From Methanomicrobia archaeon JdFR-19 (GTDB lineage Archaea; Halobacteriota; Methanosarcinia; DSM-18856; Methermicoccaceae), in assembly GCA_002010075.1 (NCBI GenBank), contig MTMG01000017.1, positions 1 to 64,000 on the forward strand: a stretch of DNA of 64,000 nucleotides. The letters are read 5' to 3'. The position numbers were made by a program, and so were the translations under genes. Of the stretch, positions 23,711 to 57,668 are shown piece after piece. A model generated the notes under the pieces. It was given only the letters and a program-made list of their open reading frames with translations. It made no database searches and was not told where the DNA came from. Numbering within the stretch: the first letter of the stretch is position 1; the number at the start of each line of letters is the position of its first letter.

Positions 23711-25564
23711 ATGAGATTGCTGTTGCTTCATTGTGATTATATAGAGTATGAGGCAAGGAAAAAAACGTCCATCTCAGAGGAAATCGATGAAGAAAGGATG
23801 AAAGGGAGGATGGAAGAAACCCTCGTGGTATTTGTAGCGGTCGAGAGAGGAGATGAGGAAAGTGAGGAGGGAGTTGCAAGAAAGGCTGTTGAGGAAATTC
23901 TCGAGGTACTTTCGAAACTTGATACCTCAAACGTAATGCTCTATCCATACGCTCATTTAAGCTCTTCACTTGCATCTCCATCATCTGCCCTTACAACGTT
24001 GAAAATAATGGAAAAACTGCTCTTAGAAAATGGTGTTAATGTTAAAAGAGCACCGTTTGGCTGGTACAAGGCATTCAGACTTTCTTGTAAAGGGCATCCT
24101 CTTTCTGAGCTCTCAAAGACAATAGAGGGGGATGTATCAAAGGCATTGAGGGCTGAAGAGAAACTCAGGTCTTATTTTTACATATTAACCCCAGAAGGAG
24201 AACTTGTCGAACACGATAAATTTGATTTTTCAGGTAGGGATAACTTGAGGAAATTTCTCTCGTACGAGATTGAAAAAAAGAGAGCTGTAGATAGGATTCC
24301 ACCTCATGTTGAACTCATGAAAAGACTCGAGTTAGTTGATTATGAGCAAGGGAGCGACATTGGAAATCTCAGATATTACCCTAAGGGAAGACTCATAAAA
24401 AGTCTGCTTGAACAGAGAGTTATTGAGAAAATGGAGGAGTACGGGGCAATGGAAGTTGAGACCCCGATTATGTACGACATGGCACATCCCACAATAAAGA
24501 GGTATCTTGATAGGTTCCCTGCAAGGCAGTATGTAATTCAGACTGAGAAGAGAAGGATGTTTCTGAGGTTTGCTGCGTGTTTTGGACAATTTTTGATGAG
24601 TCATGATATGACAATACCATATAGAAGTCTGCCCCTCAAGATAGCAGAACTCACACGATACAGTTTCAGACTCGAGCAGAGTGGAGAAGTTGTTGGACTG
24701 AGAAGGCTGAGAGCGTTCACAATGCCAGATATGCACACGTTATGCAGAGATATTGAACAAGCCAAGGATGAATTTATGAAACAGTATATTTTGTGCATGG
24801 AAATGCTTTCTGATATAGGTGTGGGCAGTTATGAAGTTGCGATCAGAATCACAAAGAGTTTCTACGATTCCAACAAAGAGTTAGTAAAATCGCTTGCCAG
24901 AAAGATAGGGAAGCCAGTAGTAGTCGAAATGTGGGAGGAGAGACCCTTTTATTTCGTTTTGAAGTTTGAGTTCAATTTTGTTGACGCTCTTGATAAGGCA
25001 AGTGCTCTTTCAACAGTTCAGATAGATGTCGAAAATGCAGAGAGATATGGGATTACATATGTGGATGAAAATGGTGCGGAGAAAAAACCAGTGATTCTTC
25101 ATTGTTCTCCTTCAGGTGCGATTGAGAGATGCATGTATGCTCTTCTTGAAGGGGCATATCTGTCAGCAGAAGAAGGAGAACTTCCCATGCTCCCCACTTG
25201 GTTATCTCCGACCCAGCTGAGAATAATTCCAGTGTCTCAGGAATATGTGAGTGATGCTATTGAAATTGCCTCCTTCATGGAGAATGTAAGGGTTGATGTG
25301 GATGACAGGGATGAGACCGTGGGAAAGAAGATAAGAGATGCAGGTATGGAATGGATACCTTATGTGGCGGTAATTGGAGAGGAAGAGAAGAAATCAGGAA
25401 AATTGTCTGTAACCATCCGCTCCAAATCCACACTCAAGAACCCACACATAGTAAAGATATCACCAGAAGAACTCAGAGATATGATTGTTAGTGAGTGTGA
25501 AGGGTTGCCATGGAAGCCATTGCCTTTGAACAGAAGACTCTCACTTAGACCCAAGTTCAGATGA
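23711..25564 (+). CDS. thrS: Threonyl-tRNA synthetase, archaeal type
   Basis: 617 residues. The first 140 residues are the archaeal editing domain, related to D-aminoacyl-tRNA deacylase ([15 protein letters not shown], then [14 protein letters not shown]). The class II catalytic core has [11 protein letters not shown], motif 2 ([20 protein letters not shown]) and motif 3 ([17 protein letters not shown]). The C-terminal anticodon domain begins near [11 protein letters not shown]. It charges tRNA-Thr and removes mischarged serine. It is convergent with purN. Confidence 0.96.
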
Positions 25565-26167
25565 CTAACTTATCTTGACCCTCCTACCTTCTATTTTCAG
25601 TTTTCCCTCCACATACAATTTCACAGCCTATGGGAATATCTCATGCTCTTGTTCAAGTATGCGTGCTGATAATGTCTCCTCAGTGTCATCTTCTTTGACA
25701 TAAACGCATCTCTGAAGTATTATTGGGCCATGGTCAACCTCTTCATCGACGAAATGTACGGTACAGCCTGCCACTTTGACACCATATTCCAGTGCCTGTC
25801 TTTGAGCATGGAGCCCCCTGAATGAGGGAAGGAGTGCTGGGTGAATGTTCATAATCCTGTTTTTGTACGTCTTCACGAACTCACTTCCCAGTACCCTCAT
25901 ATATCCTGCCAGAAGTACGAGCTCTACATTTCTATCGCTCAGCAACTTCATAAGGTATCTGTCATATTCATCTCTGCTTTGAAACTTTGTCGGATCAGCG
26001 AATATTGCTTCAATCCCATGATTTTTCGCCCTCTGAAGAGCATAGGCATCTTTGTTGTCAGATATGACAACGACTATTCTTGCGTTTTGTATGTATCCAT
26101 TCTCAATGTTGTCTATTATTGACTGTAAATTTGACCCTCTGCCAGAAACCAAAACACCTATGTTCAT
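25565..26167 (-). CDS. purN: Phosphoribosylglycinamide formyltransferase with in-frame TAG
   Basis: About 200 residues from the ATG at 26167 when TAG at 25628-25630 (codon 180) is read through. VLVSGRGSNLQSIID is the N-terminus, and NIHPALLPSFRGLHAQRQA with HFVDEEVDHGPI are active-site motifs (N, H and D catalytic residues). After the TAG the frame gives AVKLYVEGKLKIEGRRVKI, the normal C-terminal helix of PurN, so the TAG replaces what is usually Arg in HE-x-P-R-A. A second in-frame TAG at 25565-25567 follows; if that too is sense, the protein ends seven codons later at TGA 25541-25543, overlapping thrS. PurN makes formyl-GAR in purine synthesis. Confidence 0.85.
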
Positions 26168-26172
26168 AGTAA

Positions 26173-27360
26173 TCACCTATTCCTCATTACCACCTCGCCG
26201 GGGAGTGTGGTTGATCCCGGGCTAATCATCACCCCTGTGTTTATGCTTGTATTTATCCCAGTATGGACATGGTCTCCCATTATAACTCCCAACTTCCTTC
26301 TTCCCGTGTCAACAAGCTCCCCTTTAAGCATAACCTTTATGTTTTTTCCATCGTGTCTGAGGTTTGCAACCTTTGTCCCAGCACCAAAATTACATCCCTT
26401 CCCAATAACACTATCACCAACATAAGACAAGTGTCCGATTCTTGTATCGTCTCCTATGATGGAGTTCTTTATTTCTACGCCATTTCCTATGTAAACTCTG
26501 TCCCCTATTGATGTTGAGGGACGGATATAACAGTTTGGCCCTATTGTACAGTCCTTTCCAATTTTCACTGGCCCCTCAATATATGCTCCACTCCGTATCA
26601 GTGTCCCATCTCCAATCTCAATCTGCCCTTTCAGGTGGGCTCCAACCTCAACGTACCCTTCCACACTCGTTTTCATCTCCCTTAGAAGCATCTCATTTGC
26701 ATCGAGCAAATCCCAAGGTCTTCCTATGTCTATCCACTTACCTAAAAGTTCAAACCACCCAATTTTTTCACCGTTTTCAATCATCATTTGAAGGGTGGTT
26801 GTGATTTCGTACTCACCCCTTAACGACTTGGGCGTCATTTTAAGATAATCGAAAATAGGTGGAGAGAATACGTAGATTCCTGCATTGACAAATCCAGATA
26901 CATTATCCGCTGGTTTTTCAACTATTTTTCTAACGAAGTTTCCCTCAACATCAACAATTCCAAATTCAGCTGGCTTTTCAACTTTTTTAAGTGCAATCAG
27001 ATATTTCTCTTCCCTTTCAAGGGCGGGTTTGATATCTTCTGGTTCAAACAGAATATCTCCATTCACCACAATGAACCTATCCACAACATATTTTTCGAGA
27101 CATCTGACTGCATCGGCTGTTCCATGCGCCCCATCTTGAGAAACAACCACCACGTCTTCAAATGTTTTTAGATATTCCTCTATCTGTTCTTTCCCTTGAT
27201 GGACAATTACGAATATTCTGTCAATCCCTACATCGATAAGCCTCTCTAAAATGTGTCCCAGTATGGGTTTATTTGCAACTTTTAAAAGCACTTTTGGAAC
27301 ACTACAAGTAAGAGGCCCCATTCTTGTGCCTTTCCCGGCTGCAAGTATAGCAGCATCCAC
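26173..27360 (-). CDS. glmU: Bifunctional sugar-1-phosphate nucleotidylyltransferase/acetyltransferase (GlmU-like)
   Basis: 395 residues. The N-terminal nucleotidyltransferase has LAAGKGTRMGPLT and PKVLLKVANKPI. The C-terminal left-handed beta helix has hexapeptide repeats from about residue 245 (GQIEIGDGTLI, GPVKIGKDCTIG, SIGDRVYIGNGVEI). The archaeal enzymes of this type act on glucosamine- or galactosamine-1-phosphate and make UDP-GlcNAc or dTDP-sugars. The stop lies just before purN, with which it forms a minus-strand unit. Confidence 0.9.
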   Translation of the reverse strand: MDAAILAAGKGTRMGPLTCSVPKVLLKVANKPILGHILERLIDVGIDRIFVIVHQGKEQIEEYLKTFEDVVVVSQDGAHGTADAVRCLEKYVVDRFIVVNGDILFEPEDIKPALEREEKYLIALKKVEKPAEFGIVDVEGNFVRKIVEKPADNVSGFVNAGIYVFSPPIFDYLKMTPKSLRGEYEITTTLQMMIENGEKIGWFELLGKWIDIGRPWDLLDANEMLLREMKTSVEGYVEVGAHLKGQIEIGDGTLIRSGAYIEGPVKIGKDCTIGPNCYIRPSTSIGDRVYIGNGVEIKNSIIGDDTRIGHLSYVGDSVIGKGCNFGAGTKVANLRHDGKNIKVMLKGELVDTGRRKLGVIMGDHVHTGINTSINTGVMISPGSTTLPGEVVMRNR

Positions 27361-29949: not shown

Positions 29950-30452
29950 TACGGGTAATTGGAGTTGGAAATTTACTGTTGACGGACGATGGGTTCGGAG
30001 TCCACGTCCTGTAGGAGCTATCCAGACGGGGTGTAGAACAGGAAATAGAAGGTATTGACCTCTGGGATGCAGGAGGGCATGCCTTCGATGTAGTGTATCT
30101 GCTGAAAGATGCCGAGTATGTGGTGATAGTGGATTCATTCAAGCGTGGGCTAACACCGGGCTCTCTCTGCACCCTTTATTTTAAACTTCCACCTGAGAAG
30201 CCATCAGAGACGACACCAGAACCATCTCCATGGTGTTCGTTGCATGACTTTGGACTGGTTGAAGCATTTCAGACAGCCAAATATCTTCATTCAGAAATAC
30301 CAAACATATGTATATAGGGAGTGGAAGTTGCATCTGTTGAATGGGGATGCAAACTCAGTGATGCTGTAAGCCCCATGGTCGATAGGGTGGCAGATATGAT
30401 AGTTGAATGGATTCAAAAAAAGACAGGGAGGAACAACAATGAAAGTGATTGA
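29946..30452 (+). CDS. Hydrogenase maturation protease with two in-frame TAG codons
   Basis: 168 residues from a GTG that overlaps the large-subunit stop (GTGA). The family motif GVGNLLLTDDGFGVHVL is at residues 6-22; the first TAG (30012-30014) is codon 23. The frame continues through IDLWDAGGHAFDVVYLL, VVIVDSFKRGLTPGS, HDFGLVEAF, then the second TAG (30315-30317, codon 124) and GVEVASVEWG with KLSDAV, to TGA at 30450-30452. The whole matches one HyaD/HycI/HoxW-type protease with no gap. It trims the C-terminus of the large subunit after nickel insertion. Conventional reading would leave only an 75-residue fragment. Confidence 0.88.
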
Positions 30453-36918: not shown

Positions 36919-38691
36919 TCACACCGGACAGATATGGCTCCCAGGACAAGTTTTTGCTATCATTACCTCCTCACTCACATTCACAACATCACCGAATATG
37001 CTTATAACCTGCTTTTCCCTACTGCGGTATCTAAAGACTGTGATGCCTTTGCACTTCAACCTCCATGCGAGTAAATAAGCCTCTTTGATATCCTCAACTG
37101 TGCAATCCTCCCTCATATTCACAGTCTTGGATACAGCATTATCAACATGTCGCTGAAAAACCGCTTGCATCCTTACATGCTGTTCAGGTGTGAGGTCCAT
37201 TGCACATTTGAACAGCTCTCTGATATCTTCAGGTATCTCTTCTATGGATGAGATGGATGGTTGTCTCAGTACCTTCTTCATCAAGTTTTCTGAGTAGAAC
37301 CCTCGCTCCTTTGCGATTTTAACAAAATTTTCATCATAATGGAAGAGCAGTTCTCCTTCAAGCGCCTCTCTCACGTATGCAACCGAGAAAATTGGCTCTA
37401 TGCCAGAGGAACAGCTTGCTATAATGCTTATACTTCCTGTGGGTGCTATTGTTGTAACAGTTGCATTTCTCATATGTTCATAACGGTCTGCCCATATGCT
37501 TTTTGGGAAGTTTGGAAAGTCTCCCTTCTCCTCACCAAGGTTTGAACTCTCATCTCTTGCAATCCTTTGTATGAAAGCCATCAAACCTTCTGCAACTTCA
37601 TATGAATAAGGGGAGCCGTAGGAAATCCCCATCTTTATGAACATGTCGGCGAGACCCATGACGCCAAGTCCAATTTTTCTATTTTTGAGTGTTATTTCCT
37701 TGATTTCTGGAAGTGGGAATACATTGACACTTATCACATCGTCAAGAAATCTTACTCCAACCCTCACACACTGTTCAAGTCTTTCCCAGTTTATCTCCCC
37801 TTCATCCACCATTTTTGATAGATTTATAGAACCAAGATTACAAGATTCATATGGTAAGAGAGGCTGTTCCCCACATGGGTTTGTTGCCTCAATCTCTCCC
37901 AGCTCAGGGGTGGGGTTGTGTCTATTTATTTCATCCATGAACAGAATTCCAGGGTCTCCAACACTCCAAGCAGCTCTCGCAATCTCATTAAAAACCTCTC
38001 CAGCATTTAAAGACTTCACAGCCCTACCATTGGTCGGGTCTATTAGAGGATAGTCTTCGTTGTTGATAACAGCCTCAAGAAAAGAGTCTGTTGCATCAAC
38101 CGATATATTGAAGTTGGTGAGTGTCTATCCATCGAGTTTTGATGTTATGAATTCCATGATGTCAGGATGATGAACTGAAAGGACGCCCATGTTTGCCCCC
38201 CTCCTTTTTCCCCCTTGCTTTATTACTTCAGTTGCTCTATCAAATACTGTCATGAATGATACTGGGCCAGATGCTATCCCACCAGTGCTTCTAACTTTGG
38301 AAAACTTTGGTCTCAGCCTCGAAAATGAGAAGCCAGTCCCCCCTCCTGACTGGTGTATGATTGCCATGTTTTTCAGTGCATCAAATATCCCCTCGATTGA
38401 GTCTGGGATTGGTAGAACAAAACACGCAGAGAGTTGTCCCATTGGGGTTCCAGCATTCATGAGGGTTGGGGAGTTGGGAAGAAACCACAGTCTTGCCATA
38501 ACTTCATAAAACACTCTCTTCATTTTCTCTCTTAGATGTGATGGTTCTGCCATTGCAACCGCAGAGGCAACCCTCCACAGCATCTGTTTTGGGGTCTCTA
38601 TTATGTTGAGATTTTCATCTCTTAGGAGATACCGTGCTCTTAGAACTTTGAGTGCGTTCTCAGTAAATGTCGGCTTTGTGAGCCCTTTCAT
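36919..38691 (-). CDS. nrdJ: Class II (B12-dependent) ribonucleotide reductase with in-frame TAG
   Basis: 590 residues from the ATG at 38691 with TAG at 38125-38127 (codon 189) as sense. The N-terminal piece has [37 protein letters not shown] and GANMGVL. After the TAG come [29 protein letters not shown] (active-site Cys and Glu) and [16 protein letters not shown]. These blocks run uninterrupted through the TAG, so it is one enzyme. The C-terminus ([10 protein letters not shown]) has the cysteines used for re-reduction. No separate R2 gene is nearby, as expected for class II. The start was chosen because a TATA box lies about 25 bases upstream. Confidence 0.88.
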
Positions 38692-38712
38692 GAGAATGAA
38701 TTTAGCATCATG

Positions 38713-38721
38713 CTTATAAAG
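38713..38721. promoter_or_regulatory. Palindromic TATA box shared by nrdJ and leuS
   Basis: CTTATAAAG is close to its own reverse complement and lies between the divergent nrdJ and leuS starts. On the + strand it would start transcription near 38745 for leuS (ATG 38753). On the minus strand it would start near 38690, at the nrdJ ATG, giving a leaderless message. Confidence 0.5.
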
Positions 38722-38752
38722 GTTGATGTTTAACAAGCCCCGATGAGAAAAC

Positions 38753-41596
38753 ATGAAAGGCGATGATGATTACAACCCGTATGAAATAGAAAAAAAGTGG
38801 CAGAGGATGTGGGAGAACTATAAGATATTTGAGGCAGAGCCAGATGACAGAGAGAAGTTCTTCATAACAGTTCCATATCCTTACTTGAATGGGAACTTAC
38901 ATGCGGGACATACACGAACATTCACCATCGGAGATGTAGTCGCGAGATACATGCGAATGTGTGGATACAACGTTCTCTTTCCTATGGGATTTCACGTCAC
39001 AGGTACACCCATAGTGGGACTTTCTGAGTTGATAAAGAAGAGAGACCCCACGACCATCAAAGTCTATACAGAATATCATGACATACCAAAAGATGTTTTG
39101 TATTCCCTCGACACTCCTGAGAAGATAGTTGAGTATTTCAAAAAAGAAGCTGAAAATGATATGAAATCAATAGGTTATTCGATAGATTGGAGAAGAAAGT
39201 TCACAACCATGGATGAGTTATACAAAGCTTTTATCACATGGCAGTATAATCTGCTTTTTGAGAGAGGATATATTTCAAAGGGTTCGCATCCCGTCAGATG
39301 GTGTCCAAACGATGAAAATCCTGTTGAGGATCATGACTTGCTTCATGGAGAGGATGCGACAATAGTTGAATATACCCTTATAAAATTCGTACTTCCTGAT
39401 GGGGTTGTGTTGCCTTGTGCAACGTTGAGACCTGAGACCGTGTTTGGAGTCACAAACCTATGGGCAAATCCAGAGGTTGTTTATCATAAGATTGAGATCA
39501 TAACTCCAGAGGGGAGTGAGACATGGATTGTAAGCAAAGAAGCAGTTAAAAAGTTAAAGTATATCGGTAAAAGAGTAGAAGAGATAGGGGAAGTAAGGGG
39601 AGATGAGCTAATTGGACTGAAAGCAAAGAACCCCATTACGGGGGACTGGGTTTCTGTGCTACCCGCGAGTTTCGTGAAAACCGAAAGCGGGACTGGCATT
39701 GTTATGAGTGTCCCCGCACATGCTCCTTACGACCATCTAGCTCTCAGAGATTTGGATGTTTCAGGATTCGATGTTTCTGATATATCGTATATATCGTTGA
39801 TATCTGTGCCTGGGCATGGCGAGTTTCCAGCGGTTGAGGTGTGTGAGGAGCTTGGAGTGAAAAACCAAAATGACCCTGAAGCTGAGAAGGCAACAAAGCT
39901 TGTTTACAAAAAGGAATTTCACTCGGGAGTTCTCAAAGATGTGTGTGGAAAGTATGCTGGAATGCCAGTCTCTAAAGTGAAGGACATACTCACACGAGAT
40001 TTCATGGAAATGGGCGTTGCTGAAATTTTTTATGAATTTTCTGAACAGCCGGTCGTTTGCAGATGCGGAACACCGTGTGTGATAAAGTTGGTGGAAGATC
40101 AGTGGTTCCTCCGTTATTCAGACATGGAATGGAAGATGAAGACAAGAGAATGTTTGGGAAAGATGAGGATAACACCGCCCGAAATCAGAGCGGATTTTGA
40201 GAATAAAATTGACTGGCTAAAGGATAAGGCATGTGCCAGAAGGAAGGGACTGGGGACCCCCCTTCCATGGGACCCCGAGTGGATTATCGAGAGTCTTGCA
40301 GACTCCACAATATACATGGCTTACTACATAATTGTAAAACTCCAAGAATTTGGATTCGAGCCCTCTGATCTGACCAAGCCAGTTTTGGATTACATCCTCC
40401 TCGGAAGGGATGATGCTTTCAGTGAGATACCCGAGGATAAAAGAGAAATTGTGAGTAATATAAGGAGAGAATTCGAGTATTGGTATCCTGTTGACCTTAG
40501 GACTTCTGGCAAAGACCTCGTTGCAAATCATTTGCTTTTCTTTATATTCCACCACGTAGCACTCTTTGACGAAGACAAATGGCCAAAATCGATTGCTGTA
40601 AATGGATTTGTGTCTCTGGAAGGACAGAAGATGAGCAAATCAAAGGGACCTTTGCTTACGATGAAGAGGGCTGTTAGGACATATGGTGCTGACCTTACGC
40701 GATTGTACATCCTCAGCAATGCTGAACTGATGCAGGATGCAGACTGGAGAAGTGCAAATGTTGATGGTATGAGGAAACACCTTCAGAGATTCTACCATTG
40801 GGCACGAGATGTAATCCAGAACAAAGCTCAAAGTGGCGAGTTGAATAGTCTGGACAGATGGATGCTATCAAGACTCTCGTACCATGTTGGTGAGGCGAGG
40901 AGTGCCCTCTCCTCTCTACAAACGAGAAAAGCTCTCCAGCATGCTTTCTTCTTACTGCTAAATGATGTTAGGTGGTATGAGAGGAGAGGGGGCAAGAATA
41001 TGTTATTTACCGTTGTTGATACTATGATAAAGCTTATGGCTCCATTCACACCACACATATGTGAGGAGTTGTGGAGTTTATACCATCGTGAAGGAGATTT
41101 TGTCTCTCTTGCACCATATCCAGAGCCCACGTGGGGCGTTGATACCTAGGTGGAGGTATGCGAATCTCTTGTCAGGGAGACACTGGAAGACATCTTAGAC
41201 ATAATCTCTGTTGCGAGAATAGAGAACCCGAGCAGAATAAAGATATACACACCAGAAGAGTGGAAATACGAGGTTATGAAAGAGGCATTTGAGTCAAGAG
41301 ACAATATGGGCAAACTTATGAAGAATCTCTCTCAAAAAGAGGAGTTTAAACCTATTATCAAAGATGTAATTTCGTTTGCCAAGGGAATTTTAAAGGACAT
41401 CAATTCGATGGATGAGAATTATGTTGAGGTATGTCAAGATGGCAGATGGAATCGTGAGATGGAAAGGAGGGCACTAATTGATGCAAAAGAGTTCTTTGAA
41501 AAAGAGCTTGGATGTGAAGTGTTGATAGACCCACCCGATAAAGTGGAGAAGGTGAAAAGTGCGAAGCCATTCAGACCAGCCATCCTGATAGAATGA
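38753..41596 (+). CDS. leuS: Leucyl-tRNA synthetase with in-frame TAG
   Basis: 947 residues with TAG at 41147-41149 (codon 799) as sense. [17 protein letters not shown] is the HIGH region, [16 protein letters not shown] belongs to the CP1 editing domain, and GQKMSKSKG is the KMSKS loop. The anticodon domain follows (TPHICEELW). After the TAG the frame continues 148 codons with the archaeal C-terminal domain ([36 protein letters not shown]), which contacts the long variable arm of tRNA-Leu. Total length matches archaeal LeuRS; the truncated 798-residue reading would lack that domain. Confidence 0.93.
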
Positions 41597-41632: not shown

Positions 41633-42916
41633 ATGTTTACCATCATAACTGGAAGCCAGTTTGGGGATGAAGGAAAGGGAAAGATTGTTGACCTTCTCGC
41701 TGAGCGTTTTGATTATGTCGTGAGATTTCAGGGTGGTGATAATGCCGGGCATACTGTAAAGGTGGGCAAACTCACAATAAAACTGCATACAATACCTTCT
41801 GGAGTACTTTACAATGCTCGCCTTCTTATAGGTCCCGGGGTTGTTTTGAATCCACTCGTTATGAAGAAGGAGATTGACTCTCTTATGGACATAGGGATAC
41901 GTATTGATAACAAAAAACTTGGAATAGATGCCAAAACCTCGGTCATAATGCCGTACCATGTGAAGTTAGATGAGTTGTCAGAAAGGATGAGAACTAAGAA
42001 GATAGGAACAACAAAGAGAGGTATTGCCTATGCATACATGGACAAGGTATCGAGGGAAGAGGTAAGGTTTGCGGACATCACAGATAAAAAAAGTTTCGAA
42101 GAAAAGATTTCGGACATCATACCACAGAAAAAAGTAATGTTAAAGGCGATGGGGGCAACAGACTCTGATATAGACGAGGCTTTTGAATTCGATGACATTC
42201 TTGCGGTAGGTAAAGAACTTAAAAGATACATAACAGATGTTTCACTCGAACTCAATCAGGCTCTTGAACAAGGAAAAAATGTGCTTGCTGAGGGAGCTCA
42301 GGGAACACATCTTGATGTAATACATGGAACGCAGAAGTATGTGACATCTTCAAGTACAATTGCCGGCTCCGCTTGTATGAATTTGGGTGTAGGACCTAGG
42401 CGAGTAGATGAGGTAATAGGAGTTGTTAAGGCATACATAACCCGTGTAGGAGAAGGGCCGTTGCCGACTGAAGTAGGGGGCGAAATAGGAGAATATCTGA
42501 GAGAGAAAGGTGGTGAATTTGGGACGACAACAGGCAGACCAAGGAGATGTGGGTGGTTTGATGCACCGCTGTTGAGAAAGGCTGTGAAACTGAATGGATA
42601 TACGTAGCTGGCACTTACAAAACTTGATGTTTTGAGCAATCTCTCTGAAATCAAGATATGCACGCATTATGAGTTAGATGGTCAGAAGATTGAGTACCCT
42701 CCAGAACTAAATTTGGAACGGTGTATGCCGGTGTATAGAGTCCTGAGAGGATGGAAAGAGGAAATAGACGATGTGGTGGAATTTGGACAATTACCCAAAG
42801 AGGCAAAGGAGTATGTATATGAGATAGAAAAAATAGCAAGAGTCCCTGTTTCAATAATTTCTGTTGGGCCAAAGAGGGAGCAAACGATTATCAGGAAGGA
42901 TCGAGATGAATGGTGA
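41633..42916 (+). CDS. purA: Adenylosuccinate synthetase with in-frame TAG
   Basis: 427 residues with TAG at 42605-42607 (codon 325) as sense. GSQFGDEGKGKIVD is the phosphate loop, DNAGHTV the IMP site and EGAQGTHLDV a later active-site block. The TAG falls within the invariant block NGYT-x-LALTKLDVLSNL, where other PurA proteins have a small residue such as Ser or Gly. After it come KICTHYELDG, WKEEIDD and SVGPKREQTI, the normal C-terminal end. It makes adenylosuccinate from IMP and aspartate. It ends in TGA, overlapping the next gene. Confidence 0.93.
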
Positions 42917-43919
42917 AAGAGAAGCGATGATGTGGGAGGGTCTCAATGGAGATGTCAGATGTAGTCTATGCGCCCATCGATGCACTGTAAAGAAGGATGG
43001 GTACGGGATATGCAGAGTCAGAAAGAACATAGATGGGAAACTATACACGCTGATATATGGTCTCGCTACTTCGATAAACGTTGACCCAATAGAGAAAAAA
43101 CCATTGTATCATTTTTATCCTTCAACATTGAGTTATTCAATGGGGACTGTTGGATGTAATTTTAGATGTGCTCACTGTCAGAATTATATGATATCTCAAG
43201 CCACGATTGAACAAGCACATTTGAGATATGTTTCTCCTGAGGTTGCTGTTTCTGATGCGCTATCTTCAGATTGTGTATCCATTTCATGGACTTACAACGA
43301 GCCGACGATATGGTTTGAATATACCTACGACAGTGCAAAGCTTGCCCACAAACACGGGCTAAAGACAGTATATGTTACGAATGGATACATAACAGAAGAA
43401 GGCCTTCGTGAAATCTCTCCGTATTTAGATGCTTTCAGGGTGGATATAAAGGGCAGGGAGAGAGTTTATAGAGAACTCTGCAAAGCAAAACTCGAGCCGG
43501 TTCTTGAATCAACACAAATAGCTTACGAACTTGGAATGCATGTTGAGGTTGTGAATCTTGTTATACCAGGATATAACGACTCAGAGGAGGATATAATATG
43601 GCTGTCGAAGTGGGTGGCAGAGGAGTTGAGTTCAGACATTCCGATTCATTTCACCCGTTTCTATCCGTACTACAAGATGCAAGACATAAACCCCACTCCA
43701 ATCTCAACACTCGAGAAAGCATACAAAATTGCAAAAGAAAATAGCATCAATTACCCATACATCGGAAATGTGATGGGGCATCCCTACGAGAATACTTACT
43801 GCCCATCATGTGGTAAGCTTTTGATTGAGAGAGCAGGATATCATGTGAATCTATTTATCCAAAAACCAGAGTGTCCAGAGTGTGGACAACCAATACCAAT
43901 AGTCGGTCTGGAGGGTTGA
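42906..43919 (+). CDS. AmrS-like radical SAM enzyme
   Basis: 337 residues from the ATG at 42906. A first cysteine group (CSLCAHRCTV) precedes the radical SAM site GCNFRCAHCQNYMISQ. GYNDSEEDIIWLS and HFTRFYPYYKM follow, as in the AmmeMemoRadiSam radical SAM protein and pyruvate formate-lyase-activating relatives. The C-terminus has a rubredoxin-like CPSCGKLL and CPECGQPIP pair. I do not see the other AmmeMemoRadiSam genes in the window. Confidence 0.88.
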   Translation: MNGEREAMMWEGLNGDVRCSLCAHRCTVKKDGYGICRVRKNIDGKLYTLIYGLATSINVDPIEKKPLYHFYPSTLSYSMGTVGCNFRCAHCQNYMISQATIEQAHLRYVSPEVAVSDALSSDCVSISWTYNEPTIWFEYTYDSAKLAHKHGLKTVYVTNGYITEEGLREISPYLDAFRVDIKGRERVYRELCKAKLEPVLESTQIAYELGMHVEVVNLVIPGYNDSEEDIIWLSKWVAEELSSDIPIHFTRFYPYYKMQDINPTPISTLEKAYKIAKENSINYPYIGNVMGHPYENTYCPSCGKLLIERAGYHVNLFIQKPECPECGQPIPIVGLEG

Positions 43920-44350
43920 GATTGGGGAAGAAAGTTCTTGCTACTGGTACATTCGAGTTTTTACATCCCGGACACATTCATTATCTCAGAGAGGCAAAGA
44001 AGCTTGGAGATGAACTCATTGTTTTGGTTGCAAGGGATAGTATGATAAGACACAAACCTAAGCCGATAATACCAGAGAAACAAAGACTCGAGATGGTCTC
44101 TGCTTTGAAACTTGTTGATAAAGCTGTCCTTGGAAGTGATGAGGATATGTACGAGCCACTTTACGAACTGAGGCCAGATATAGTGGCTCTCGGCTATGAC
44201 CAGCTATTCAATGAGGAGGAACTCAAAAGAGAGTTCAAAAAGAGAAATCTGAATATAGAGGTTGTGAGGATAAAATCAAAAAAAGATGGAGAATTATGCT
44301 CGAGCAAAAAAATTATTGATAGAATATTGAGTAGAGCTTATGAAAATTAG
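43916..44350 (+). CDS. ribL: FAD synthetase RibL
   Basis: 144 residues from the TTG overlapping the stop of the radical SAM gene (TTGA). KVLATGTFEFLHPGHIHYL is the nucleotidyltransferase HxGH motif, and LGYDQLFNEEELK the second part. The archaeal enzyme attaches AMP from CTP/ATP-type donors to FMN. The conserved protein is complete at TAG 44348-44350. If TAG is sense here too, the product is two or three residues longer and ends at TAA 44357-44359, so the reading cannot be judged from this gene. Confidence 0.88.
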   Translation: MRLGKKVLATGTFEFLHPGHIHYLREAKKLGDELIVLVARDSMIRHKPKPIIPEKQRLEMVSALKLVDKAVLGSDEDMYEPLYELRPDIVALGYDQLFNEEELKREFKKRNLNIEVVRIKSKKDGELCSSKKIIDRILSRAYEN

Positions 44351-44353
44351 AAA

Positions 44354-45355
44354 TTATAAATTAATGAGGAAGAGATTTCCTATATTTACTTTTTTGAGAT
44401 ACATTTTCGCTGTTTTGTAACATTCTCTCACCTGTTCCTTTGGAGTTATGGGGAGGTCTTTGAGTTTGTAGTCTGGGTGGAATACCAGCAGACTATATGG
44501 TATGTCTGGACTTACTGATGAAATAAAGGATGCAATACCCTTTACTTCCTCCCCATCAACATAGTAAGGAACCAATAGGGTGGTGGCGGTTAGCAAGTCA
44601 GGATGGGAGTCATCACGATATTCTGAAACAACACGAAAATTTTCCAACGTCTTTTTATTGCTCCTTCCAGTCAGAAGAATGTGAAGATTCTCGTTCCAAG
44701 CTTTCAGGTCAAACTTGATTATTCCTTCACTTTCTTTTGATATGGATGCAACCTTTCTTACCAACTTCGTGTTTCCAGAGCCATTCCATTCCCAGCATAT
44801 TCTGATGTCTCTTTCAATCTCACTCAACACTCTTTCTGAGACTTCGATTGCAAATGGTAATTGCGGCTCAGGGGAGCCACCAAAAAAGCAGATGCATTTT
44901 ATCGCTTTATTTTTCTTGATTTCATCAACAAGTTCGTCTTGGGTTATGTATGGTGCAGAGTCAACGTTCTTATGTTCCCAGTTTTGGCAGTATAGACAAT
45001 CGAAGTTGCAACCATAAAAGAAAACAGCAAGATTGTATCCTCTTTCAGAAGATGCGGGACAGAACCAAGAGGCACAACAGTTTGTCGGGAGGAGGTCGAG
45101 ATATGTATGTGCAAGCCCCCTCTTCCATGAGACCAAACTTTCCAATTTTCCATTTTTTACATATCTGAGATTACACAACCCCACATTTTCTTCATCTAAT
45201 TTGCATTCGTTTGAGCACAATCTACAACTGAATTTCCCTCCAGAGAGGCTTCTATGGAGTTTTGTTGATACCTGTCGAGCTATTGGTTTCTTTGCACACA
45301 AGGGACAGAGGGAAAGTACGTTGGAAGGTGCAAACTCACCGCACACACATTTCAT
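44354..45355 (-). CDS. Radical SAM protein with N-terminal zinc-like cysteines
   Basis: 333 residues. The N-terminus has CVCGEF and CPLCAKK, then CRLCSNECKL and GLCNLR, before the radical SAM site GCNFDCLYCQNWEHK. GGSPEPQLPFAIEV and KFDLKAWNENLHILLTG follow. It resembles PflA-like radical SAM enzymes of archaea with unknown substrates. It is convergent with ribL, three bases from its possible end, and divergent from tRNA-Ile. Confidence 0.85.
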   Translation of the reverse strand: MKCVCGEFAPSNVLSLCPLCAKKPIARQVSTKLHRSLSGGKFSCRLCSNECKLDEENVGLCNLRYVKNGKLESLVSWKRGLAHTYLDLLPTNCCASWFCPASSERGYNLAVFFYGCNFDCLYCQNWEHKNVDSAPYITQDELVDEIKKNKAIKCICFFGGSPEPQLPFAIEVSERVLSEIERDIRICWEWNGSGNTKLVRKVASISKESEGIIKFDLKAWNENLHILLTGRSNKKTLENFRVVSEYRDDSHPDLLTATTLLVPYYVDGEEVKGIASFISSVSPDIPYSLLVFHPDYKLKDLPITPKEQVRECYKTAKMYLKKVNIGNLFLINL

Positions 45356-54739: not shown

Positions 54740-56062
54740 ATGGACCTCGAAGGATATGCAAAGAAGTTTCTTAAAACTGGAAGTCATGAGGGTGAAGTAA
54801 TAGACAAAATTGCGTAGAGGATAGTCGAGATAAAAGAGATATCTGAGGAGAAAGCACGTAGGCTGGCGGAAGCTGTTGTTCTTGAATCCCTCAACACCCT
54901 GAATTTGAAGGGATATCTCATAGAAACCCATACTTCAGGTGTAACAATGGGGGAGCTTGGTGTGGGCTCTCGGGGAATGGGGGACTTCTTTTTTCATGAG
55001 AAAATTGCAGAAGTTATCGGTGAAACTGGGGCAGTTGTTGACTCGAGACAGCTTGATGATTCTGGTGTTGTTAATATCGATGGGATGGGTTTGGTTGTTA
55101 CTGTGGATGGGATACACTCGAGACTTTCCGACTTTCCGTTTTTGGCAGGATTTCATGTAACGAGGGCGGCCCTCAGAGACATATATGTGATGGGTGCTGT
55201 ACCGGTGGCAGTCATTTCAGATATCCATCTTGCAGACGACGGAGATGTTTCAAAGATTCTTGAACATGTTGCAGGGATATCTGCGGTGTGTGAGGTAATG
55301 GATGTACCTTATGTGAGTGGTAGCACGCTGAGAATAGGCGGGGACATGGTGATAGGAGACAGGATGACTGGAGGGGTTGGTGCCGTTGGAATAGGTGAGA
55401 TAAGCAAAATGAAACTTAGGAAAAATGTGGTTGTGGGCGATGTTATTGTTATGACAGAGGGAGCGGGAGGGGGGACGATATGCACTACTGCACTGTACAA
55501 TAATATGCCAGAGATAGTGGAGGAGACAATAAACGTCGATTTTTTGAGGGCTGCACATACTTTACTTCAGAGTAAATTATCCCAGCATGTTCATTCAATG
55601 ACCGATGTTACGAATGGTGGGTTGAGAGGAGATGCAGAGGAGATATCTAAAGTAAGTGGTACGAAGCTTGTTGTGTTCGAGGAAGAAGCCAGAAAACTTG
55701 TGAATAAGAAAGTAATTGACATGCTTGATAAATTGAATATCGACTATCTTGGCGTTTCTTTGGATTCGTTGTTATTGGTACTTCCTGAAAAATATGCTCT
55801 GTCTGTTATAGAGCTGTTCGACGACGTTGGCGTGCGGGCCGGTGTTGTTGGAAGGGTCGAAGAGGGCAGGGGAGCAGTACTGGTTGAAAATGGAGAGGAG
55901 AAAGATTTCACACCACGTTTCAGGGAGTCTGCATACACTCCGATAAAGAAGGTTGTTGGAGAGTTGACACCACCCGACTTTGATTATATGAAAGAGAAGG
56001 TTGAAATAGCTACAAAAAAAGCGATAGAGAAGAAGAAAAGGGTTGTTAGTAAGTTGAAATGA
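54740..56062 (+). CDS. AIR-synthase/HypE-like protein with in-frame TAG
   Basis: 440 residues with TAG at 54815-54817 (codon 26) as sense. The first 25 codons (MDLEGYAKKFLKTGSH) run into RIVEIKEISEEKARRLAEAV after the TAG. The core has HTSGVTMGELGVGSRGMGD, DDSGVVNIDGMGLVVTVDG, SMTDVTNGGLRGDAEE and GRVEEGRGAVL, as in the COG1973/methanogenesis marker 2 group of AIR-synthase-like ATP-binding proteins. The function is not settled. Conventional calling would start at an internal codon near 54905 and lose the N-terminal part. Confidence 0.85.
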
Positions 56063-57164: not shown

Positions 57165-57668
57165 ATGAGGGTAACGATGGATCTGGAGCTTAAAGATGTG
57201 CCGGGAAAACTCGTAGAGGCTCTTCTTCCGTTTTAGGAAGTGGATGCGAACATACAGAGTGTTGTACATTTTAGGGACAAAAAAACATCAAGGGGTACGG
57301 TTTATGTGAAGGTTGTTGCTGAGACTACTCCTGAAAACATTGATAAGATTCTGGACAAACTCATAGAAAGAGGAATATCAGTTGCATCGTGTGGAGAAGA
57401 AAGACTCGTTGAAGAGGGTTCGGTTTTGGTGATTGGGCACATAATACATTCTGATATCAGAGACACCATAGACAAAATAGATTCTACGGGATATGCTGAA
57501 GTGGTTGAGTTGAAAATATCTATGCCAGCCATTGAAAAGCCATCTGCAGCATATCTTGTAATAAGAGCAAAAACAAAGAGACATCTTCAGAAGGCAATAG
57601 ACATACTCAAGCAAGTGTCTGAGGATAAGGAGCTTCTTGTGGTCGAGCCAATTTCTGGTATTATTTAA
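57165..57668 (+). CDS. ACT-domain regulatory protein with in-frame TAG
   Basis: 167 residues with TAG at 57234-57236 (codon 24) as sense. MDLELKDVPGKLVEALLPF, then TAG, then EVDANIQSVVHFRDKKTSRG is the standard first ACT domain; most homologues have IS or similar at the TAG. A second part (GYAEVVELKISMPAIEKPSA, RHLQKAIDILKQVSEDKELL) resembles the archaeal ACT plus DUF5612-type regulators placed next to amino-acid genes. It starts ten bases after hisG, so it may sense an amino acid. It ends in TAA. Confidence 0.85.

Follow-up and report, generated by a model that had tools for sequence, protein, structure and literature searches.

The leucyl-tRNA synthetase (LeuRS) gene of Methanomicrobia archaeon JdFR-19 raises the question of how a full-length enzyme is made from a frame that contains a stop codon. 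In the window, which is the whole 64,000-nucleotide stretch of DNA analyzed, leuS occupies 38753–41596 on the forward strand. It opens with ATG at 38753, runs for 798 codons to a TAG at 41147–41149, and continues in the same frame for 148 codons (41150–41593) to TGA at 41594–41596, giving 947 codons across the TAG. A sequence-only reading had joined the two parts into a single LeuRS, assigning the 148 codons to the C-terminal domain, and these coordinates were confirmed. It left the decoding mechanism unnamed and missed the interrupted genes on both sides of leuS.

The LeuRS reading frame

The read-through protein was compared with the archaeal family model TIGR00395 (leuS_arch), which it matched with 1186 bits (cut-off, 648.5), residues 11–947 aligning with positions 2–938 of 938, in agreement with the earlier claim that 947 residues is the length of the family. 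Alignment with an archaeal LeuRS, which had been proposed as a check, also upheld the join: P. horikoshii LeuRS (1WZ2) matched with 930 bits, residues 10–947 against 7–967, where 967 is the last residue of 1WZ2. The part past the TAG aligned with all relatives, and an uninterrupted LeuRS of equal length and ∼56%–60% identity was present in almost every one of the 59 other genomes surveyed from the class. The C-terminal domain of archaeal LeuRS contacts and recognizes tRNA-Leu; here it is encoded in frame past the TAG and is predicted to be part of the protein. Residue 799 falls in the linker, a variable stretch just ahead of this domain, where relatives have Gly, Asp, Ser, Arg, Thr, Glu and other residues, a setting that might accommodate an unusual side chain.

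An intact second leuS, or a codon other than TAG at this site, had been named as evidence that would speak against the joined reading. No second leuS was found in the assembly (89.75% complete), the other matches being weak ones to class I synthetases, namely valS on contig C4 and an open frame of 1054 amino acids on C17 that is probably IleRS. The closest relative, of the same genus, is the metagenome-assembled genome Methanosarcinales archaeon B74_G9 (QMVI01; scaffold name B74_Guay9), which was compared through its contig L117 and search hits. Its independently assembled LeuRS is 97% identical and also has TAG at codon 799 (L117 position 3027), while the two leuS genes differ at 131 other codons, 105 synonymously and 26 nonsynonymously.

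An IleRS-like match in the sister species (G001 C26:3938–4909) has two in-frame TAG codons that are lacking from its counterpart on C17, indicating gain and loss of TAG sites between close species.

TAG-interrupted genes in the window

Both neighbors of leuS are interrupted by TAG. On one side, the gene for B12-dependent ribonucleotide reductase (NrdJ; 36919–38754, reverse strand) has TAG at codon 210 (38125–38127), which is also TAG on contig L117 of the sister species; its product matched TIGR02504 with 703 bits (residues 35–584 against model positions 2–606 of 606), the match spanning the TAG unbroken. On the other side, purA (adenylosuccinate synthetase; 41633–42916, forward strand) has TAG at codon 325 (42605–42607), and positions 1–416 of the 416 of PF00709 were spanned with no break there. 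Contig L117 of the sister species retains this TAG and that of a RibL-like nucleotidyltransferase gene (43871–44356), in which TAG at 44348–44350 (forward strand) lies near the 3′ end, two codons ahead of TAA; the sister species has the identical TAG and the identical two extra codons.

Further in-frame TAG codons were found elsewhere in the window. The purN gene (25563–26176, reverse strand) has one at 25628–25630 and a second near its end at 25565–25567, and the read-through product matched TIGR00639 with 250 bits over model positions 1–191 of 192. Coding signal is present on both sides of the TAG at 30012–30014 (forward strand), in a hydrogenase maturation protease-like frame, named from its sequence only, that continues for 145 codons, and of the TAG at 54815–54817 (forward strand), early in an AIR synthase-related gene whose downstream frame runs to 56062. 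For the TAG at 57234–57236 (forward strand), within a gene ending at 57668, there is coding signal together with a homologous alignment to relative G006 in which the flanks are conserved.

Distribution of TAG across the assembly

The assembly examined comprises 1,288,683 bases in 27 contigs. Stop codons at the ends of coding segments were compared over all of it, using no homology. The open frame past the end had a median length of 61.5 codons after TAG versus 12 after TAA and 12 after TGA; a coding-like in-frame extension followed 42% of TAG, 7% of TAA and 6% of TGA codons, and a further in-frame coding segment followed 47% of TAG ends versus 9% and 8% of TAA and TGA ends.

For a comparison by homology, proteins from 1.2 Mb of relative G006, in which PylS above the family cut-off is absent, were aligned to the window genome (192,138 aligned codons). 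Stops with conserved flanks on both sides numbered 72 for TAG versus 4 for TAA and 6 for TGA. TAG is thus interior to many conserved genes and TAA and TGA are not: of the 10 interior TAA and TGA codons, 7 are in the rRNA operon, 2 stand side by side as a tandem stop and 1 is in an out-of-frame match. The frames in the rRNA operon (C3:58–62 kb) are noise, as are the TAG at C1:22812 (1 of the 72) and the TGA at C1:22902, which are out of frame with a transporter gene. The 72 TAG sites fall in 66 reference-matched genes, mostly housekeeping, and the read-through lengths are like those of the G006 references (e.g., 905 versus 913 and 271 versus 271).

Read-through frames that scored over curated cut-offs include AlaRS, GatA, chorismate synthase, EPSP synthase, dihydroorotate dehydrogenase, RNase HII, RNase Z, HisA, homoserine dehydrogenase, ThiI, KsgA, CofH and QueC; matches of the TAG-interrupted NAD kinase-like and PurP-like proteins were below the curated cut-off. 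The frame at C2:22815 was dropped as aIF2-gamma and is a YchF-related GTPase.

TAG is also rare as a terminator relative to G006. Of 310 genes that the two genomes share outside the rRNA operon, 197 end with TGA, 106 with TAA and 7 with TAG in the window genome; their G006 counterparts end with TGA in 216 cases, TAG in 60 and TAA in 34. In five of the seven TAG-ended genes, a TAA or TGA follows no more than ten codons on. The other two, at C3:55446 and C23:3336, are apparently TAG-ended with 86 and 27 codons, respectively, to the next TAA or TGA; genuine termination at TAG, a frameshift or a long extension could account for each.

Pyrrolysine genes

A gene for tRNA-Pyl(CUA), pylT, was identified with ARAGORN at C6:52999–53069. 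The predicted RNA has a tRNA fold with a short D loop and is the only CUA tRNA that ARAGORN found in the 89.75% complete assembly; a pattern search for Methanosarcina-like pylT gave no match, the gene found by ARAGORN differing in the anticodon loop. Adjoining pylT are separate genes for the two parts of pyrrolysyl-tRNA synthetase (PylRS), PylSn (TIGR03912, 94.3 bits; cut-off, 51.15) and PylSc (TIGR02367, 298 bits; cut-off, 178.15). PylB (417.6 bits), PylC (334.6 bits) and PylD (222.4 bits) each scored over the cut-off, so that the pyrrolysine-encoding system is complete, with tRNA-Pyl(CUA), both parts of PylRS and PylB, PylC and PylD. No TAG was found within the pyl genes identified.

The genes pylB and pylC lie on C6 (C6:6197–8343), apart from pylT, pylSn and pylSc, and pylD lies apart from both on C18 (C18:1439–2215); many archaea have a single pyl cluster. 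Beside pylSc is a gene for a secreted protein (L024:14240–16090, reverse strand, equivalent to G000 C6:54240–56090) with four in-frame TAG codons, a higher density than in any other gene seen, whose product contains dockerin-like repeats and a phosphoesterase-like part.

A canonical MtmB gene (C9:29153–30496) and one MttB-family gene have one TAG each, in keeping with known pyrrolysine enzymes, that of MtmB sitting at the conserved pyrrolysine region. Two further MtmB-family proteins (C14:15182–16522, reverse strand, and C9:38669–39991, forward strand; L232 and L233) are TAG-free, with Met and Phe opposite the TAG of the canonical copy, and may differ in substrate. McrA (MCR_alpha) had no match in the assembly, 89.75% complete. 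The genome does encode MtmB and MttB-family methyltransferases, and CODH/ACS-like and hydrogenase-like genes are found in the window; the lineage is possibly a non-methanogen methylotroph, or mcr may belong to the tenth of the genome that the assembly lacks.

Identity of the residue at TAG

The residues that G006 has opposite TAG were scored at 67 aligned sites, a small sample in which lysine was the best fit of the twenty amino acids and the only one with positive log2 odds (+5.5); other values were −4.1 for Glu, −8.8 for Arg, −16.6 for Gln, −72.7 for Tyr and −78.2 for Trp. Pyrrolysine is a lysine derivative, and this lysine-like pattern supports it as the residue inserted, short of proof. 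Alongside Glu, Arg and Lys, relatives have Met at 7 of the 67 sites, seemingly above expectation. Side chains that are long and unbranched predominate, as if pyrrolysine were tolerated where such side chains fit.

Decoding of TAG

Read-through of the leuS frame, its conservation, the genome-wide pattern of TAG and the complete pyl gene set were all observed. From these, TAG at 41147–41149 is very probably a pyrrolysine codon, and TAG a general sense codon in this lineage, not one specific to leuS. PylB, PylC and PylD would convert lysine to pyrrolysine, which PylSn and PylSc would charge onto tRNA-Pyl(CUA). The ribosome would insert pyrrolysine at UAG and go on to the TGA at 41594, yielding the 947-residue LeuRS with its C-terminal domain, and termination in the lineage, which is the sister of Methanosarcinales archaeon B74_G9, would be left to TAA and TGA. 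Archaeal release factor 1 (aRF1) would compete with Pyl-tRNA(CUA) at UAG. We infer pyrrolysine as the inserted residue, efficient insertion and an aRF1 that is outcompeted at TAG; efficient read-through is suggested because TAG is rare as a terminator and present in essential single-copy genes. Counting against this are the seven shared genes that still end at or near TAG, including the two in which the next TAA or TGA is 27 and 86 codons away.

Those genes would also fit a UAG that is ambiguous between pyrrolysine and termination, as has been proposed for Methanosarcina-type archaea; leuS would then yield a 798-residue fragment alongside full-length LeuRS, the proportions depending on how much pyrrolysine is available. 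The aRF1 gene (C4:108488–109753) encodes a protein with the NIKS, GGQ and YxCxxxF-type motifs retained, like that of G006, and these motifs offer no explanation for a loss of UAG recognition, which also counts against the main reading. Competition between the two is moreover the accepted model for pyrrolysine-using archaea in the sections of PMC9499178 drawn on here. We nevertheless regard ambiguous decoding as unlikely, as frequent truncation would be costly in housekeeping genes present as single copies, such as those for AlaRS, GatA, NAD kinase and RNase Z, and TAG is nearly gone as a terminator, at 7 of 310.

If TAG were instead a true stop, the C-terminal domain could be made separately by re-initiation; this is conceivable for leuS taken alone, and GTG does stand directly past the leuS TAG, at 41150, in both species. 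Start codons occur within five codons past TAG at 26 of the 72 sites (36%), however, close to the background of 30% after any codon; none stands directly past the TAG of the ribonucleotide reductase gene or of purA, and extensions of such size follow only TAG, not TAA or TGA, making a split gene very improbable. Just as little probability attaches to another suppressor tRNA that would insert a canonical amino acid at TAG: such a tRNA could be missing from an assembly that is ∼90% complete, but the sole CUA tRNA found is tRNA-Pyl and the aligned residues exclude Q, Y, W, L and S. A pseudogene or a sequencing or assembly error, which a lone in-frame stop would fit, is refuted for leuS with a negligible chance of being right, given the identical codon in the independent sister assembly, an excess limited to TAG and the lack of any other leuS, and sequencing error is ruled out because the sister species retains TAG in LeuRS, PurA, ribonucleotide reductase and the RibL-like gene.

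Relation to known codes and implications

Descriptions of pyrrolysine usually treat it as an extra that serves methylamine enzymes. An archaeal Pyl code, in which all TAG codons are read as pyrrolysine, was reportedly described in 2025. As reported, that code resembles the one proposed here in having TAG as sense in many unrelated genes, a full pyl set and TAG nearly absent as a terminator. Distinctive here are a two-part synthetase, PylSn plus PylSc, and the presence of TAG in LeuRS, AlaRS and GatA. Stop codon reassignments in bacteria and eukaryotes (UGA to Trp or Gly, UAG to Gln) likewise turn a stop into sense throughout a genome, whereas here the meaning would be the 22nd amino acid and the residue pattern is unlike Gln or Trp.

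Pyrrolysine use of the Methanosarcina type, as set out in the sections of PMC9499178 drawn on here, shares the tRNA, synthetase and biosynthesis families and the TAG in MtmB; here TAG extends beyond methylamine enzymes to the 72 sites in 66 genes. According to the same sections, UAG read-through in pyrrolysine-using archaea competes with aRF1, and a TAA or TGA a short way past the UAG keeps unintended read-through in check. They also describe a PylSn+PylSc class of archaeal PylRS for Methanomicrobia archaeon JdFR-19, a relative of Methanosarcinaceae, which agrees with the separate pylSn and pylSc genes beside pylT, and genome-wide TAG recoding in JdFR-19 is not described in them.

With standard gene calling, dozens of this lineage's genes come out truncated, including those for LeuRS, AlaRS, PurA and ribonucleotide reductase, and annotation of its genomes should be redone treating TAG as a sense codon. 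Were pyrrolysine read at these sites, LeuRS, AlaRS and GatA would themselves contain it, and the code would be self-referential: the cell would need pyrrolysine to produce its leucine- and alanine-charging enzymes and its amidotransferase GatA. We lean toward the view that this methylotroph-like Methanosarcinales lineage, with no detected mcrA, has an obligate code of 62 sense codons and 21 amino acids, in which pyrrolysine in LeuRS, AlaRS and GatA makes its synthesis essential for any protein and locks the code in. If pyrrolysine is present in synthetases and in core biosynthesis, its loss should halt protein synthesis altogether, and the lineage would offer a testable case of how the reassignment of a stop codon turns irreversible.
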